In this document: positions 26,442-50,273 of the stretch, piece after piece
Position numbering within the stretch: position 1 is the first letter of the stretch
Layout of the letters: each line of letters opens with the position of its first letter
From: Eremomyces bilateralis CBS 781.70
Lineage: Eukaryota > Ascomycota > Dothideomycetes > Eremomycetales > Eremomycetaceae
Length of the DNA: 64,000 nucleotides
Assembly: GCF_010015585.1 (NCBI RefSeq)
Contig: NW_022985105.1
Span: 1 to 64,000, forward strand
Reading direction: 5' to 3'
Notes under the pieces: model-generated
Seen by the model: only the letters and a program-made list of their open reading frames with translations
The model's database searches: none
Told to the model about the DNA's origin: nothing
Translations under genes and position numbers: made by a program

Positions 26442-27349
26442 ATGCCGTCTTCAGGTCTGTGGCCTTTCAGATCATGATATTCTCATGTCAAGGCTATAAG
26501 AAGCTAATATTCAATCCCAGCCACCGTCCAACAAATCAAAGGCGTCACCGCCAACTCCCCTCTTCCGCCCTCCGTTGAGTATGCATACTACCAGAAGTGC
26601 ATCGCCCTGAAACGCCGAATCAACGAAATCGAAGATAGCAACGACACCGTTCGGTTGAGAAAAGCCCGCGTCTCCCGTGCGATCCTGAAAATGCGCCTAG
26701 AACGCGCCCTCCTACTCGAGCAGCTCCAGAAACGCATGGAGCACAACCCCGATGACTCGGACCGCACCGACAGTCCACCCCCGACGGTGAGTGCCATGGA
26801 ACTGCGCTGAATCCCGCTTTTCTCTACCACCCCATCATCAAAGCCGGGCGCTGACGACGTGTGCCTGGCAGCCGCAAGAGAAACCTCTCCGCTCCAAGCG
26901 GGCACACCGAAAGTCTTCGCCCCACGCGAGCCCCGCTCCGCCCGGGCCCGCATCTCCCTCCGCCTCTGCCTCTGCCCTCCCGGCCTCCCAGAACGCCTTC
27001 CCCCTCTCCCAATCCTCCCACCCTGCGCCCCTCTCCTCTACCAATTCCACCCCCGACCCCGCGCGCGCGCCCGCCTCGTTCTTCGGCGGCGGCGGCGGCA
27101 TCCCCCTCCCTGTGATCGCGCGCTCCATGAACGGCGCGCCGGCGGCACAAGTACTACGCCATCCCCCAGCATATTTACCAGAATATATCACTAACCGGTT
27201 GCGTGCTGCAGAATGGTATCGATGGCGCTGATGCCGATGAGTCTGGACGGAGGGTGGAGAATGGGGAGATGAATGGAGCGAGGGGGGACGTGGAGATGGA
27301 CGATGCGCAATCGGGGTTCGGAGCGGGGTTTACGGCGGTGAATCGATAG
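26442..27349 (+). CDS. INO80 complex subunit F-like protein
   Basis: Probable small subunit of the INO80 chromatin remodeller. Four exons, 26442-26454, 26521-26786, 26872-27150 and 27212-27349, join in frame to 231 residues; the first exon is only 13 nt and codes for MPSS plus one base. Residues 22-95 form a coiled coil, EYAYYQKCIALKRRINEIED followed by RLRKARVSRAILKMRLERALLLEQL, which matches the INO80F/TFPT-type domain as I remember it. A basic patch (RSKRAHRK), a long Ala/Ser/Pro-rich linker and a Gly run follow. The C-terminus is acidic (ENGEMNG, GDVEMDDAQ). A bZIP factor was considered but there is no basic DNA-contact region ahead of the heptads. Confidence 0.83.
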
Positions 27350-27749
27350 CGGAGGGTACACAATAGCATTTGAACATGGCGTTATGGGGGGTTTGATATC
27401 AGGAGGGTTGTCTAAGAGGGTATGGGAAACTGGGAATGCTTTGCGGGTGGTTCTACATTAGGCACCAGTATGAATACCTCTTTTTTTGGCTGAGTGCCTG
27501 TATAGGCCATTCGAATTTCAATACGACGGGGGATAGCGTTGAAGGCAGCCATGAATGGAAACAATGATCAGGACATGGTATTAATACTTGAAGAATCCAA
27601 CTTAGTAATCATTACTGCCTCGTGCTCTTCCTTAGCTCGTCATGACTCCTCAAGAGGTCTGGTTGTGAGAGCAGTATTATTATACGAATATTCCCGAACT
27701 TAGCAGCTGTGTAATCGTCTTTCTATGATTGGTTTTATTTTCTGTCCAC
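27350..27749. other. 3' flank of the INO80F-like gene
   Basis: About 400 bp between the gene's stop and the Fot1-type transposon. It should contain the 3' untranslated region. Nothing else is recognised. Confidence 0.5.
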
Positions 27750-27751
27750 TA

Positions 27752-27805
27752 AGTTCGAACCCCTGCCTGTTGGCCAACCACCTACTTGGCCAGTATCACC
27801 ATCTT
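27752..27805. repeat. Left terminal inverted repeat of the Fot1-type element
   Basis: 54 bp, identical in reverse complement to 29510-29563. It contains the short inner palindrome TTGGCCAA. Confidence 0.97.
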
Positions 27806-27854
27806 CACCACCATCACCAAACGCGTAATATCTCAACCACCATATCGTATTACG

Positions 27855-29441
27855 ATGTCAAATTCAGAGGAGATACTCCTACAGGCTATCCATGCCGTAG
27901 AGACCGGTCAATGCAAATCACAAAATGAAGCTGCGGCCCTATTCAAGGTCAATCGAGCTACGCTTCAAAACCGCCTCAAGGGCATGCAATCGCGCTCTAC
28001 AGCTCAACAATCGAACCAACGCCTTACACCGGTGCAAGAGAGGTTTTTAGTCGACTGGATACTTGAGAGTGACGCTCAAGGATTCCCCCCTACCCACGCA
28101 CGTCTGCGTGAAATGGCCGCGCGAGTTCTAGAGCTTCAGGGTGATTCTACACCCCTTGGGAAGAATTGGATACCACGATTTCTACATCGAAATCCACGCG
28201 TTGCGACGTGTGTTGGGCATAGTCTAGATGTCGTACGACGTCAGGCTGCAACCCAGGATACAATCAATGGGTTTTACGCGTATTTTCACCAAGTTCAGAC
28301 ACAGTACGATGTCCACCCTTCCGATACATGGAATATGGATGAAGTCGGTGTTGGAATGGGAATATGTGCTAATTCTACTGTCATCGCAGACTCGCAGAAG
28401 TCGACAGCTTATATCACGAGTCCTGAGAACCGGGAATGGTGTTCTATCATAGAATCAGTCTCTGCGACCGGTCGCTATATCAAACCAACCATTATCCAGA
28501 AAGGCGCGTCCCTACAAGCTGCTTGGTTCCCTGAACAACCTCCAGACTTCCATTATGCGGTATCACCAAACGGCTGGACTTCAGATCAACACGCGTTGGT
28601 GTGGCTTCGTACAGTTTTCCTCCCTGAAACCGCTACAGAGCGACGGTACAGGATCCTACTCATGGACGGGCACGGAAGCCACGCAACCGTCGATTTCCTA
28701 TACGAATGCAGGATAAATGACGTGATTGTGGTCTTCCTACCTGCGCATACCTCCCACATCCTTCAGCCTCTCGATCTCGCCTGTTTTTCACCTCTGAAAC
28801 GCTTCTACAAGGCCCTCCTCCGCCAAAGCGCGTATATCGACGAGGCGCTACCGATTAAACGACGAAGATTCATTGTCCTCTATGCTGAGGCGCGTCGGGC
28901 ACGCCTAATTGACCGTACAATCAGATCAGGGTGGAAGGCTGCAGGTCTTATACCGTGGGACCCGTCAAAAGGTCTCAATAACCGGTTCGTGGTACCGCCC
29001 ACGCATACCGAAACCGCATCCTCAATTCCACGACCAAACACGCCTCCACGCACCCCAATACTAGTCGCCTCGGTCCTCCAGACGACGCCCTACAAGCCCA
29101 AACAAATACAAAGTGCATTGCGCGTTCTTAGCAAGAACACACGCGTGACGAAGTGGACGAAGGCCTACATAGGGAAGGCAGCCAAGGCAATCGGAGTGCT
29201 ACAGGCGCGTCAGGCTGCATCAGATCTGAAAATTGCGAGTCTCCAGGCCCGTCTAGATGCCGCCTCAGCCCCAAAACGCAAGAAGAAGGTTCGGATAGAT
29301 CCCAATGTTAAGTTCGCACAGATTAAAGAGATCAAAGTAGCGCAAGAGGCTGTACGGCTTCTGGAGGCAAATACTATACTAGAACAGAGTATTCCCGTGG
29401 CTGAAACTATACCAGACGCTCCCCAAGATGCTGTACAATAG
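27855..29441 (+). CDS. Fot1/pogo transposase
   Basis: Cuts and pastes the surrounding element. The first ATG at 27855 gives 528 residues. Residues 1-50 form a Psq-type helix-turn-helix (ETGQCKSQNEAAALFKVNRA) and about 55-125 a CENP-B-type DNA-binding half (QERFLVDWIL, FPPTHARLREMAARVL, WIPRFLHRNP). The DDE_1 catalytic core has D162 (WNMDEVGVGMG), D271 (LLMDGHGSH) and D307 (LQPLDLACF), a DD35D spacing as in Fot1. A C-terminal helical tail (about 430-500) is rich in Lys/Arg. The frame stays open upstream into the terminal repeat but has no ATG there. No internal stop or frameshift is seen. Confidence 0.95.
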   Translation: MSNSEEILLQAIHAVETGQCKSQNEAAALFKVNRATLQNRLKGMQSRSTAQQSNQRLTPVQERFLVDWILESDAQGFPPTHARLREMAARVLELQGDSTPLGKNWIPRFLHRNPRVATCVGHSLDVVRRQAATQDTINGFYAYFHQVQTQYDVHPSDTWNMDEVGVGMGICANSTVIADSQKSTAYITSPENREWCSIIESVSATGRYIKPTIIQKGASLQAAWFPEQPPDFHYAVSPNGWTSDQHALVWLRTVFLPETATERRYRILLMDGHGSHATVDFLYECRINDVIVVFLPAHTSHILQPLDLACFSPLKRFYKALLRQSAYIDEALPIKRRRFIVLYAEARRARLIDRTIRSGWKAAGLIPWDPSKGLNNRFVVPPTHTETASSIPRPNTPPRTPILVASVLQTTPYKPKQIQSALRVLSKNTRVTKWTKAYIGKAAKAIGVLQARQAASDLKIASLQARLDAASAPKRKKKVRIDPNVKFAQIKEIKVAQEAVRLLEANTILEQSIPVAETIPDAPQDAVQ

Positions 29442-29509
29442 TCCTATGGTTTGAATTTTCAATATAATTACGTGGTGGTAGAGATGTCACGGTTTTCATG
29501 ATGGTGGCT

Positions 29510-29563
29510 AAGATGGTGATACTGGCCAAGTAGGTGGTTGGCCAACAGGCAGGGGTTCGAACT
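29510..29563. repeat. Right terminal inverted repeat of the Fot1-type element
   Basis: 54 bp, the exact reverse complement of 27752-27805; followed directly by the TA duplication. Confidence 0.97.
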
Positions 29564-29565
29564 TA

Positions 29566-30042
29566 GCAAACCATGCCGATTCTCCGATCTCGCTGGTTGC
29601 TTGAATTGAACAAAGAATCGGCCTCTGAATAGAAGGCACGTGATATCAATTCCAATCTTTCTGTTTCAGATGATCGTCTTATCATCCACATTCCCTCACG
29701 ATAATCATTGCGATCGAAATAATTGATAATACACTACTGTGAAGTCCTTCAGAATTCCATTGTAGTGAAAGATCTTTGGAGCTCCGGTTCTGGTTAGCGC
29801 CATCGATTGAACCCTTCCCCCTCGCAAATCGCCGCCATTCGGCGTTTTGATTCCGTATTGGTAGTACTGCTGCAGACCGCTGCCCACCAAACCACCCAAC
29901 CAACAGTCATCCATCAAAAATTCATCTTCGCCCCTCGATAACACTTCCACCTCTTCCACCTCCTTCGACTTTTTCATACTTTTGACTCTCCATCTTATCT
30001 CAACCCGGTCAAACTGGCCATTAGATTCCAATAGTTGCGCTT
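29566..30042. promoter_or_regulatory. CPA1 promoter region
   Basis: About 480 bp between the transposon and the attenuator uORF. A near-match to the general amino-acid control (Gcn4/CPC1) site, TGACTCT, lies near 29982. The transposon forms the upstream border of this promoter. Confidence 0.5.
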
Positions 30043-30355
30043 ATGCGTGTCTCTCCGTCCGTCTTCACTTCTCAGGTATGATACGATCCGTTCCCTAAAT
30101 TTCCCGCTGGATGAGTCTCTTATCTACGCTCTATGATCCTGACCCATCCACTTTCAACATCGCCTCAACCTTTCAAATTTTTGCCATTGACAACCCCTTT
30201 GCATCGACTATGGAGTAATAGAAGGCTAATTGAGTTTCTGTTATAGGATTACATCTCGGGTAAGACTTCAATCCGACTCATTACCGCCCCGATGGCACTG
30301 GAGTGGTGATACTGATAAGGTTCTAGATCACCTGTGGAAGGCTTCAAATAACTAA
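30043..30355 (+). CDS. Arginine attenuator peptide uORF of CPA1
   Basis: A regulatory uORF of 24 codons plus stop that, in fungi, stalls ribosomes when arginine is high and lowers translation of the downstream gene. Three exons, 30043-30075, 30247-30259 and 30327-30355, join in frame; the middle exon is only 13 nt. The peptide contains PSVFTSQDYISDHLW, nearly identical to the core of the Neurospora arg-2 peptide, and Asp-12, which is known to be essential there, is kept. The last four residues (ASNN) differ from the usual ALNA. Introns inside this uORF are known in other ascomycetes. The uORF stop at 30353-30355 is 69 nt ahead of the CPA1 ATG. I am very sure of the identity because both the peptide and the gene it precedes match. 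Confidence 0.94.
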
Positions 30356-30424
30356 AAGACGATATATCCTTCGTTGAACAAACCTATACCCACACACAAC
30401 ACCCTCATTATCATTATCGACATC

Positions 30425-31897
30425 ATGATTTCGAATATCATGAAGCCTTCCACGGTGCGACCCGTCATGGCCGCTGGTGCCCGAGCATTCCGTATGCCAG
30501 CCCCAGTCCGATTCATGGCCACGGTCCAGGGCAACACGGAGCGAAAGATGCCAGCAGTGAGGCCGAAAGGCACGCCGGCATCGTTTGAACGAGCGACCTT
30601 CACCATTAGGGTATGTATACATCCCCAAACGGTGAGTAAAACAGACCGGTGACTCACCGCCTTTTAGGATGGGCCGATCTTCGACGGCAAGTCGTTCGGT
30701 GCGAAGGCCAACATCTCCGGTGAAGCGGTGTTCACCACCTCGCTCGTGGGATACCCCGAATCGATGTCCGATCCTTCATACCGTGGACAGATCCTCGTGT
30801 TCACCCAGCCGCTGATCGGGAACTACGGCGTCCCCTCATCGGTTCGCGATGAGTATGGCCTGCTCCGTCACTTCGAGTCGCCTAACATTCAAGCCGCCGG
30901 CGTGGTGGTCGCGGACGTGGCGCTGAAGCATAGCCATTGGACGGCGGTAGAGGGACTCAGCGAGTGGTGTGCGCGCGAAGGCGTCCCCGCCATTTCCGGC
31001 GTGGACACCCGCGCCATTGTCACGTACCTCCGCGAGCAGGGGTCCTCCCTCGCCCGCATCACCATTGGAGAGGAGTACGACGCCGACGAGGACGAGGCCT
31101 TCATCGACCCGGAAGCCATCAACCTCGTCCGCCGCGTCAGCACCAAGGCGCCCTTCCACGTCAGCGCCCCCAGTGGCGACCTACATGTCGCGCTGCTCGA
31201 CTGCGGCGTCAAGGAGAACATCCTCCGCAGCCTCGTCAGCCGCGGCGCTAGCGTTACCTGTTTCCCCTACGACTATCCGATCCACAAGGTCGCCCACCAC
31301 TTCGACGGCGTCTTCATCTCCAACGGCCCCGGCGATCCCACCCACTGCCAGGAAACCGTCTACCATCTCCGCAAGCTCATGGACTCTTCCCAGATCCCCA
31401 TCATGGGCATCTGCATGGGCCACCAGCTCCTCGCCCTCGCCGCTGGCGGCAAGACCATCAAGCTGAAATACGGCAACCGCGCCCACAACATCCCCGCCCT
31501 CGACCTCACCACCGGCCGCTGCCACATCACCTCGCAGAACCACGGCTACGCCGTCGACATGACCACCCTCCCAGCCGAGTGGAAGGAGTACTTCGTCAAC
31601 CTCAACGACTCGAGCAACGAGGGGCTCATCCACACCTCGCGACCCATCTTCTCCGCGCAATTCCACCCCGAGGCGAAGGGTGGCCCGCTCGACTCCGCAT
31701 ATCTGTTCGATCAGTACGTCGAGAACGTGCGGAAATATAAGGATGGTCAGGCGGTGTTCACACCGTTGCGGGATAGTCGGCCCAGTCCGTTGTTGGTGGA
31801 TTTGTTGGCGAAGGAGCGCGTGGGCGTGCATCCGAGTTTGCCGGATGTGAAGGAGCAGGTGGTAGAGGAGGCACCGGCGGTCACGGCGACGGCGTGA
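30425..31897 (+). CDS. cpa1: Carbamoyl-phosphate synthetase, arginine-specific, small subunit
   Basis: The glutaminase subunit that supplies ammonia to the large subunit (CPA2/arg-3) for carbamoyl phosphate in arginine synthesis, in mitochondria. Two exons, 30425-30610 and 30668-31897, join in phase 0 to 471 residues. The first 50 residues are rich in Arg, Ala and Pro with no acids, a transit peptide. The CPSase small-chain N-domain spans about 63-200 ([36 protein letters not shown]). The class I glutamine amidotransferase domain spans about 233-430 with catalytic Cys311 in GICMGHQLL and His395/Glu397 in QFHPE. The start could be the ATG at 30425 or 30440. Expression is probably controlled by the arginine attenuator uORF upstream. 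Confidence 0.97.
30650..30656. promoter_or_regulatory. Gcn4/CPC1-type site in the CPA1 intron
   Basis: TGACTCA, the exact consensus for the general amino-acid control activator, within the palindrome GGTGACTCACC, inside the 57-nt intron of CPA1. A near-match, TGAGTAA, lies about 20 bp upstream in the same intron. Use as a site in vivo is inference. Confidence 0.5.
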
Positions 31898-32081
31898 GGG
31901 ATGTTATCAGGTTGGGACGATCATTGGAGGCGTATAACGAGATAGTAGGCGTTTTGAGCTTTAAACTCGCTAGCGGATTTAGTGAATTGATTCTTTTGGA
32001 TTACATGGTTCTGCTGCCTTTTTGTGACTGGTCTGTAGCCCGTATTCATATCCGTGAACCAAACAATCCAAATCCCCCCAT
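31898..32081. other. Convergent intergenic space
   Basis: 184 bp between the CPA1 stop and the stop of the minus-strand F-box gene. It holds both 3' ends and nothing else I can see. Confidence 0.6.
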
Positions 32082-33067
32082 CTACTCCCCCTCCCCATCC
32101 CCCAACACCACCATCACGTACTTCACCCACCACTCCCCTCTCCCCCTCCACTCCTCCCGTCCCCAAACCCACCCCCTCCCCACCGCCTCCCGCAACCCCA
32201 CCGCCTCTCTCTCCCACCCCCTCCTCTCATCCTCCCGAAAGAAATAATACCCCACCAATCCGCTCCCCTCCACCTGCGCATACCCCACCCGCTCCCACGT
32301 CTCTGCATCCACCGTTCCGCAGACGTCGCAGGTGGCGGCGCAGGAGCAACGGTACCGTGCGTGAGTGGAGGCGGACCAGCGTATGAAGCCGCAGTGGAGG
32401 CAGAGGGGGCGGGAGGTGAGGAGCCAGCGGGGGGTGAGGTTGGGGTCGGTGGACGAGTTGCTCGACGCTATGTCCGAGCATGCGGGGTCAGCGTCCGAGG
32501 TCGCCATCTCGTTGTCCGCAGCTATCTCCCCTTCCCGCTCACCGAACGCCAGGTTCGCGTCGTTCGGCGCGGCGGAGAGGACGGTCCGCGGCGATTGGGT
32601 GGTGAAGCGGGCGCGGTGGCGGGGGCAGACGGAGTGTGGCGGGGTGGGGAGGATATCACCGGGGCCGGCGAGCAGGTCTTTTGGGGCGCGGGGAAGGTGG
32701 GTGTCGNNNNNNNNNNNNNNNNNNNNNNNNNNNNNNNNNNNNNNNNNNNNNNNNNNNNNNNNNNNNNNNNNNNNNNNNNNNNNNNNNNNNNNNNNNNNNN
32801 NNNNNNNNNNNNNNNNNNNNNNNNNNNNNNNNNNNNGAGGGCGTTGCAGAGGTAGCAGTAGTGAGATTGGGGGGTGGAGAGGAGGGTTTTGGAGAGCCAT
32901 TTGTGGTCGCAGGGAGGGAGGATGGTGGGGGGTGGGATGCGGGTATGGAGGGAGGTGGAGGTGAGGCGGAGGGAGACGCGGTGGCAGGGGCGGAGGTAGG
33001 AAACTATTTCGTGGAGAAGCTCGTTTGGGAGGGCCGTCAGATGGGCCGGTTGACGCGATGTGTCCAT
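32082..33067 (-). CDS. F-box protein with C-terminal cysteine cluster (interrupted by assembly gap)
   Basis: A likely substrate adaptor of an SCF ubiquitin ligase. The ATG at 33067 opens a protein whose residues 9-40 form an F-box (LTALPNELLHEIVSYLRPCHRVSL). A Cys pair follows (HYCYLCNAL) just before the 130-base N run at 32707-32836. After the gap the protein continues in a different frame through SVCPRHRARF and a cysteine cluster (CLHCGFIRW; RCSCAATCDVCGTVDAETW) to a TAG at 32082-32084. The coding stretch plus the literal gap is not a multiple of three, so either the gap length is a placeholder or an intron lies in it. The overall plan (F-box plus zinc-ribbon-like tail) is common in fungi. 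The target is unknown. Confidence 0.8.
32707..32836. other. Assembly gap
   Basis: 130 consecutive N bases inside the F-box gene. The flanks are very G-rich on the plus strand, which may be why sequencing failed here. Confidence 0.99.
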
Positions 33068-47329: not shown

Positions 47330-50273
47330 TCACTTGTCCACACTCCCACTCCTCTCGACACCGATACCCCCGCCACCTAGCTCCCGCATACTCCAACTCG
47401 CCTTATGCGGCACCGCCCCCCTCGGCAACGACCCATAACTCAGTCCTCCCGACGCCGACCTCGTCCCCGACGACTCTGACCTCGACACCGATGTACTTCC
47501 ATCACTCCGACTCCTCCGAACCCGAGCAACCGTCAAGCCGCTTGCACCCCCCTCCGAAACCCCTGGTGATCTGGAGCCAGAGCTCCCGCTGTCCACACTA
47601 GCGTCACTGCGCGGACGCGACGCCGCATCCGCCGGCGTCCCATCCCACTCAACCCCCGTATCTATCCGCTCCAGCCGCGGACGCCGGGGTATGGCAATGC
47701 GCTCAGGAGACATATTCGGGCTCACAGACTGTGCCACGCTCGACGGAGCACGTGTGGTTTCGTCCTCATCTGCAGCGGGGTTGACCAGTACCGGATCCGC
47801 ATGGAAGTCCGCTGCAGACAGCGCTCGCTCGCTCCTGATATCCGGGTCCTCATCCTCGATCTTCGCGATCCGACGCACACTGCTGACCCGGAACCCCGTT
47901 ACGGGCGCCACGGTGCTGGTAGTGCTCTCGGACGCGAGACGCGACGCGTTGGGTCGCTTGCGCCAGAACAACAAGCTTTCAACGCTGATGGACGGTGATT
48001 TCTCCTGGGCGTCCTCCTCGGAGGGAGTCGAGCCTGCGCGGGCGAGGTAGGCGAAGTATTTCTCGCGGAGGCGGCGCCAGCGCTGCGGATGGAAGTCCTC
48101 AGTGGGGCGGTCGCGCATGATACTCATCCAGGAGGTGGCGGCGCTGATGGCGATGGCGACGAGGAGGAAGAGGGTGAGGAGGCTGTGAAGGACGATGATG
48201 ACAATGCCGATAGCGGTGGCGGGGATGCGGGGGAGGGCGAAGGGGGTGTGGAAGGTGGCAGCGAGGGCGAGGGTGGCAACCTTGCTGAAGCCGAGGAGGT
48301 AGACGACGAGAGCGTTGAGGCGGCGAGATTCGTAGGGATTGGCGTAGATGATGCCGCAGAAGGCGAGGGTTTCGACGGCGAGGAGTCCGAAGACTTGGAC
48401 CATCGGATGCCCGCTTGCCCCGCCGTACAATGTTGCACGAACGAACTCATAAGCTAACCAGTAGCAGAAGAAGAGCCACTGCGATCGGCGATACCGAGAG
48501 ACGAGCCAACCAAACCTAGTCATGTAGTCGATATCTTCGTGCACCGTTATCCCATCTTCGTTAGGAGTGTATTTAATGACCGGGACACAGAAGTGGATAG
48601 TACCCCTTTCACCCTCAGAATGCGAGACGCTGTCGCGGGAGATAGTCCACCACGGCATGATTTTGAGAACCCTTCCCTTCCCAACGCAGAACACTTCCTT
48701 GCCGAAGGTCCAAGTTCCACGCTTCATGCGATAGTAACCAGCGTATCCTGCAAGAGTGAAGCCGCCAATGAAGAAAAGGAGGAAGACCGTGGTAGAAATG
48801 CCTATGACTGCCGAAGCGCCATGATAGGTGAACTGGAATGTTGTAAGGAATATTATCATGAAGAATCCGATGAACAACGTCCTCAAGACTGCTGCTTGGG
48901 TGTAGAATTGCCAGTTCTTCCTGAAAAAACCAAGTCGATGACCTTTGACGAGATTGACCCGCATCATACCCTCCAGGGTCCATTTGAACAGTGCAACTGA
49001 GCTTCCGATTATAACGACGGCAGTGAGTAGCCAGAGGAACCCGGTCATGAACGCATTCGAGGCTGGGATATTTTCGAAAGAGAGCGTGCCCGCAAATCCA
49101 GAGTAATTTCCAGGTAGCGGTAGCCCAGCGTTAGCGGCTTTGCCATACCGGCTAAACCCGTTTGCCTCAGTCAAAAGGGCTCTCGTCGCCCACATATGAG
49201 TGGAATCGTCCGCGTCTCTTTTGTAGATCTTCCGGAGGTCATATTTGCCGGCAAGATTCTCGATTCGGAAACCAGTTCCTGAGGCACCAACGGCCATGGG
49301 GTTGCCCTTGTCCTCTCCAACTAGACGGTTGATCGAGCTTTGCATCGACTTGGTGAAAATCATTCCACCGGCCCACGCATAGTTGCTCCAGAATGCTACC
49401 AGGACACTGGGCAAGTTCAAAGACAAAGCCCCAGTGTAGTAAATGTGCTGGAAGACGGCAAAGACCACAAGAACAGACATGGAATGCGCATAGTGCTTCC
49501 TCATCTCAGGGACATTGTGGCCATAGATTGCTGTAGCGAAAGAGGAGACGATGGCAATGGTTGCGAAAACCCCCAATAGGGACCCGACTGCGTACGGGTG
49601 AGAGAACGTGGCGCCATTAGTGACCACCGCTGAGATACATCCAATTTCTGACTTCGTGGAGTTGGCAAATATTTGAAAGATGGCTCTGCCTTCGAAATCT
49701 GGAATCGTAAGGGCAATATCTAAGCCACATCAGCGTCATGTTTCCTCATTCCGAAAGTAGATGTCATACCAGGAATATTCGCGATGTCTTCAGGGGCGAC
49801 TAGGATATTCCCTCTGGCCTCGATCGGGATAGACTTGCTGAGAGGGCATGCGCTCCGGATATTGGCACTGCATGGGTTGAAGGGCAGCTGGAAACGGGTT
49901 TCGCCATATGCGGAGACGCCGATGTACACTATGAAGATCAGTTTCCATTGCTGCTCGACGTTGAAGAGATCGACGAACTCATAACCGCCTCCTTCGCCAG
50001 GGTGGTCGACCCTTGCAAATGAAACACCACTGTCATGTTATCCTTGTAAAACGCGGCATCGAACCTGGTCACCTTGACCAATGAGCTGCTGCCCATACAG
50101 TCGCCAAAATCCCCAGTATATAGGGCTGGCTTCCGGCTATCTCGGAGGGGGATCTTTTTGCCGTCAGGGCCCTGGACCGTGATCCATTTCTCTTTGGGGA
50201 CGATCGCCAACGTCTGTTGGAATACGGCGAAGAGGACGAGGAGGAACACGAGGATGCCACGGAAAACCGACAT
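47330..50273 (-). CDS. FLC/TRP-like membrane protein (flavin carrier, Pkd2-like)
   Basis: A fungal TRP-channel-like protein of the FLC/Pkd2 family, linked elsewhere to calcium flux, cell-wall integrity and FAD transport. Three exons on the minus strand, 49979-50273, 49770-49928 and 47330-49719, join to 947 residues. The first 23 residues are a signal peptide (FRGILVFLLVLFAVFQQTLA). The ML-like lumenal domain runs to about 185 and keeps the cysteines of NPCSANIRSACPL and SEIGCISAVVTNGATFSHP. About nine membrane helices follow, from LLGVFATIAIVSSFATAIYG to HSLLTLFLLVAIAISAATSW. The C-terminal 270 residues are cytosolic, Ser/Arg/Asp-rich and disordered. The second donor (A, then GTTCGT at 49978) was chosen because it restores the family's VMxYIxVxAYGE stretch. 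Confidence 0.94.

Follow-up and report, generated by a model that had tools for sequence, protein, structure and literature searches.

It is well known that a short leader peptide of a fungal arginine-synthesis gene halts ribosomes when arginine is plentiful. In the yeast and Neurospora crassa systems, the stall takes place at the stop codon of an upstream open reading frame (uORF) (PMC7969011), and at high arginine it blocks scanning (PMC7969011, PMC11550727). In the yeast-type uORF, the D13N exchange abolishes the arginine response (PMC7969011). The yeast and Cryptococcus CPA1 uORFs have also been linked to nonsense-mediated decay (NMD): in S. cerevisiae, CPA1 undergoes NMD that depends on the uORF, and the CPA1 homologue of C. 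deneoformans is up 5-fold without Upf1 (PMC7049704).

The uORF considered here belongs to the same gene as the S. cerevisiae leader peptide and the Cryptococcus CPA1 uORF. It lies in Eremomyces bilateralis CBS 781.70, in the first 64,000 nt of contig NW_022985105.1 (the whole of this stretch is called the window). The arginine attenuator peptide (AAP) family, of which it is a member, is well known. In the literature, as searched by titles and abstract starts, we found no description of a three-exon AAP uORF. The work of Hood, Spevak and Sachs (2007) on the evolution of the CPA1 uORF is said to mention introns in some AAP uORFs. We are rather confident that a genuine AAP uORF precedes a fungal CPA1/arg-2 gene at this locus, that its three exons are joined by ordinary splicing and that it operates by classical attenuation.

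The uORF, its peptide and the downstream gene

The leader and the CPA1 gene are predicted to be organized as follows (all on the + strand):

30043..30075, +, uORF exon 1: 33 nt, codons 1-11 (MRVSPSVFTSQ), AUG in the weak context GCGCTT ATGC
30076..30246, +, uORF intron 1: 171 nt, GTATGA...TTATAG, branch-like GGCTAAT 17 nt from the intron end
30247..30259, +, uORF exon 2: 13 nt, codons 12-15 (DYIS) and the first base of Asp-16
30260..30326, +, uORF intron 2: 67 nt, GTAAGA...TTCTAG, branch-like TACTGAT 11 nt from the intron end
30327..30355, +, uORF exon 3: 29 nt, the remainder of Asp-16 through the stop (HLWKASNN, TAA)
30356..30424, +, intercistronic leader: 69 nt, without AUG
30425..30610, +, CPA1 CDS exon 1: AUG with A at -3 (GACATC ATGA)
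30611..30667, +, CPA1 CDS intron: 57 nt, GTATGT...TTTTAG, containing TGACTCA at 30650
30668..31897, +, CPA1 CDS exon 2: CPSase small chain and glutamine amidotransferase domains

An earlier note had read the uORF as three exons with a middle one of only 13 nt, and this reading holds to the base. The segments 30043-30075, 30247-30259 and 30327-30355 join into a 75-nt open reading frame (24 codons, stop counted in addition), which encodes MRVSPSVFTSQDYISDHLWKASNN followed by the stop. Intron 1 falls between codons 11 and 12, and intron 2 splits codon 16 behind its first base. Both introns have GT-AG ends, and the joins, as predicted from the DNA, bring the three exons together exactly and keep the frame.

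The identification as the AAP uORF of CPA1, also made in that note, is borne out by the peptide and by the domains encoded downstream. When the spliced peptide was compared by phmmer with 177,635 distinct PDB sequences (E up to 10), the sole sequence returned was 2xl1_A, an arginine attenuator peptide, with an E value of 1.9e-8 and identity in 16 of 21 aligned residues. As a sequence match, this is far beyond chance. The 2xl1 peptide, which we take to be the N. crassa arg-2 AAP, shares with the uORF peptide its length of 24 residues, the register and the PSVFTSQDY-SDHLW core, and both sit 5' of the gene for the small subunit of carbamoyl-phosphate synthetase (CPSase). Asp-12, whose presence the note had stressed, is in register with the 24-residue 2xl1_A chain, as is Trp-19. 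It presumably corresponds to the Asp that is exchanged in the yeast-type D13N variant. Within the aligned residues 3-23, the uORF peptide has V-S for G-R at positions 3-4, I for L at 14, K for R at 20 and S for L at 22. The C-terminal ASNN is a true difference and, as a departure from the solved peptide, a point against the main explanation, but it is confined to the last four residues, which in AAPs presumably tolerate change. In terms of sequence, the uORF thus has the conserved core with Asp-12 and Trp-19, the length of about 24 residues and the location in the CPA1 leader that mark the family. The split of the coding sequence concerns E. bilateralis, whereas 2xl1 was compared as a peptide alone.

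The CPA1/arg-2 coding sequence (30425-30610 and 30668-31897) encodes 471 amino acids in an intact reading frame, and its AUG lies 69 nt past the uORF. Exon 2 matches the Pfam families CPSase_sm_chain (E 4.2e-42) and GATase (E 1.4e-52), and judged by these domains, the gene codes for the small subunit of the arginine-specific carbamoyl-phosphate synthetase. The genome contains two CPSase_sm_chain matches. The second one, on another contig (C18), presumably represents the pyrimidine-pathway enzyme. Between 29700 and 30424, the spliced leader contains a single AUG ahead of that of CPA1, namely the one of the uORF. It has C at -3, a weak context, whereas the CPA1 AUG is better placed with A at -3. 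This predicted layout would allow ribosomes to leak past the uORF at low arginine, in agreement with the leaky scanning described for CPA1 (PMC7969011).

Splice signals and mis-spliced leaders

The splice signals of the uORF were calibrated against 24 introns of the E. bilateralis genome from CCT, actin-family and proteasome genes, which were obtained from 30 segment pairs tried. The joins were hand-picked from candidate lists, and some of the picks were not the top-ranked ones. For L008, an acceptor was placed manually on the basis of the sequence. The first 18 introns came from all 18 CCT and actin-family pairs tried, and they lean towards good donors because the donor consensus aided the ranking. 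For the 12 proteasome pairs the donor was not used in the choice; six were kept. L105, L106, L111 and L118 were dropped for want of a candidate, L107 because it fitted poorly, and the second L121 pair because it was ambiguous. The neighbouring pairs L035/L036, L038/L040 and L041/L043, with gaps of at least a few hundred bases, were left out of the calibration.

Beside the 24 calibration introns, the two uORF donors score in the mid-range, above 14 and above 9 of them. With the first 18 introns alone, the scores were 5.22 and 1.92, near the bottom of the leave-one-out range (1.64-10.31), the reason being that this set has neither A at +6 nor G at -2. The effective pseudocount was unchanged, and the rise is due to the six introns added later; A at +6 occurs in two of these. 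The donors, first read as weak, are therefore not claimed to be so. The calibration introns are 47-173 nt long, and the 171 nt of intron 1 exceed 23 of the 24, the sole longer one having 173 nt. Leader and 3'UTR introns in Cryptococcus are likewise longer than the average intron (118 vs 63 nt; PMC7049704). The branch motifs CTAAT and CTGAT lie 17 nt and 11 nt before the ends of introns 1 and 2, whereas CTRAY-like motifs in the first 18 calibration introns are found 9-15 nt before the end, so that the motif of intron 1 is slightly farther from its acceptor. Together with the length of intron 1, this distance is a point against the main explanation. In all, this small sample shows no departure of the uORF introns from ordinary splice signals.

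A structured RNA element at the locus was considered and rejected. A comparison of 29450-31000 with Rfam (E up to 1) gave no match, and the 313-nt locus does not fold unusually well (z +1.38; 91 of 100 shuffles fold at least as well).

The consequences of failed splicing were computed from the sequence for four forms of the leader. Retention of intron 1 keeps the AUG, cuts the uORF to 12 codons and brings in four further AUGs, and retention of both introns likewise leaves 12 codons and adds five. If intron 2 is retained, the result is a 31-codon uORF without Asp-16 to Trp-19, together with one AUG. Skipping of exon 2 leads to a 27-codon uORF whose tail is foreign, and it alone among the four forms adds no AUG. 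The expectation that mis-splicing destroys the conserved half of the uORF was thus confirmed in all four forms. None keeps the arrest sequence, so attenuation depends on splicing. The further proposal, that attenuation is then simply lost, stands only in part: the arrest peptide is indeed gone, but retained introns add upstream AUGs, and a clean release of CPA1 is therefore not expected. Instead of being derepressed, intron-retained transcripts would probably show poor translation or undergo NMD, and for these forms a release of CPA1 is no more likely than NMD or a reduced CPA1 output. Among the four forms, only exon-2 skipping would bypass attenuation cleanly.

Proposed mode of action and rival explanations

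By analogy with the known family, we infer stalling, an arginine response and NMD for the E. bilateralis uORF. Its exons would be joined by ordinary, mostly constitutive splicing ahead of export. Most scanning ribosomes would bypass the uORF AUG with its weak context, and those that start there would make the 24-residue peptide. At high arginine, the peptide would jam termination at the uORF stop, the stalled ribosome would block scanning to the CPA1 AUG, and the stall would probably mark the mRNA for NMD. Splicing itself may contribute to the last step, because the genome encodes a Mago nashi homologue, which makes an exon-junction complex likely, and the CPA1 coding-sequence junction lies 255 nt past the uORF stop.

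This raises the possibility that the introns matter constitutively, through splicing that deposits exon-junction complexes and raises export or expression, with the CPA1 junction strengthening NMD upon a stall. The Mago nashi homologue, the position of the junction and the 5-fold effect of Upf1 loss in C. deneoformans are in its favour. However, S. cerevisiae CPA1 is a uORF-dependent NMD substrate, and to our knowledge it does not have such introns. The idea is compatible with the main explanation, and we regard it as possible, but doubtful. It is extremely unlikely, in our view, that the uORF is no more than a relic or is bypassed, with the main CPA1 mRNA beginning past 30043 or within intron 1 and the attenuator unused. 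A transposon that ends about 480 nt upstream might have altered the promoter, but peptide, frame and splice sites show no damage, and this speaks for selection. Moreover, the stretch 29700-30042 is free of ATG, as in a scanned leader. Zero ATGs compare with 3.8 expected there, and only 35 of 2000 mononucleotide shuffles are as low, although the start was picked post hoc (the nearest ATG further upstream is at 29670) and the 29850-30042 part on its own is unremarkable (zero vs 1.54 expected; 421 of 2000 shuffles as low).

The earlier note had also proposed splicing as a second control layer on CPA1. According to this proposal, the ratio of spliced, retained and skipped leaders would shift with arginine or growth state and set the share of transcripts with a working attenuator. 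Each of the four mis-spliced forms (12, 12, 31 and 27 amino acids) loses the stalling residues, and the donors had seemed weak in the smaller, 18-intron calibration. There are also precedents for such control. In Trichoderma virens, a condition-dependent microexon switch is known for Xlr2, likewise a very short exon of a filamentous fungus whose inclusion decides function, and the leader of the N. crassa SAM decarboxylase (SDC) gene, likewise a metabolic gene with uORFs near splice sites, is alternatively spliced into isoforms with and without uORFs (PMC11121469, PMC5640933). The parallels go only so far: Xlr2 is a glucose-responsive transcriptional regulator, whereas the CPA1 uORF exon is not known to be regulated, and its 13 nt are not divisible by three, as the length of the usual microexon is (PMC11121469). 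The SDC leader has a structured RNA motif (PMC5640933), whereas the Rfam and fold tests found none at the CPA1 uORF locus. The splice and branch signals look ordinary, the donors being mid-range beside 24 introns, and intron retention would not lead to clean derepression, which exon skipping alone would give. The proposal of a second control layer is thus not borne out, and a regulated switch appears quite unlikely. As to its most specific version, we consider it very improbable that the 13-nt exon is skipped purposefully, which would turn the arginine-sensing tail into an inert 27-codon uORF without added AUG and switch off feedback on CPA1. A working attenuator that is produced by routine splicing is very likely, and the gene structure is neat and elegant, yet probably ordinary.

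Genomic surroundings and detectability of split attenuators

Upstream of the leader, at 27750-29566, there is a Fot1/pogo-like DNA transposon with DDE_1 and HTH_Tnp_Tc5 domains and a 551-aa open frame. Its termini are 94-nt inverted repeats (90% complementary) with TA at both ends, and about 480 nt separate the element from the CPA1 uORF. Elsewhere there are three full-length copies at 100% identity and many diverged or partial ones, so the insertion near the uORF is probably recent. At C1:963947-965736 of the same genome, both transposon ends match at 100%, with no match reported for the middle of about 1.1 kb. This element may be a non-autonomous relative with a replaced interior, or its middle may simply be unscored. 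The TGACTCA at 30650 inside the CPA1 coding-sequence intron is presumably a GCN4/CPC1-type site. TGASTCA occurs five times in the window, and the region from about 27000 to 33000 has no other instance. At 32707-32836, 130 consecutive N lie within small overlapping frames about 800 nt past CPA1, and a TRP-type channel gene (PF06011, E 1.7e-101) is encoded on the minus strand at 47333-49729.

Relatives were sought in several sequence sets. In the unspliced genome of E. bilateralis itself, nothing was reported for the spliced peptide in a search run without a positive control and with a query that is perhaps too short for it; the result fits uORF pieces of 11, 4 and 8-9 residues. A degenerate pattern for an uninterrupted AAP matched no stretch of the genome contig set. 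CPA1 exon 2 found 52 loci in the same set, all bacterial by title and at most 49% identical, and no fungal relative. A regular-expression search of these 52 loci for AAP-like motifs gave FTSQ only, in CarA-like and other frames. Among viral contigs, five stretches fit a pattern in the comparison with CPA1 exon 2, and none was a relative.

A ribosome-arrest peptide of 24 residues has thus been kept nearly unchanged in E. bilateralis, even though two introns interrupt its coding sequence. As a consequence of such interruptions, scans of unspliced DNA can miss an AAP uORF. If the 13-nt exon were regulated after all, splicing and nascent-peptide sensing would be joined on one mRNA.
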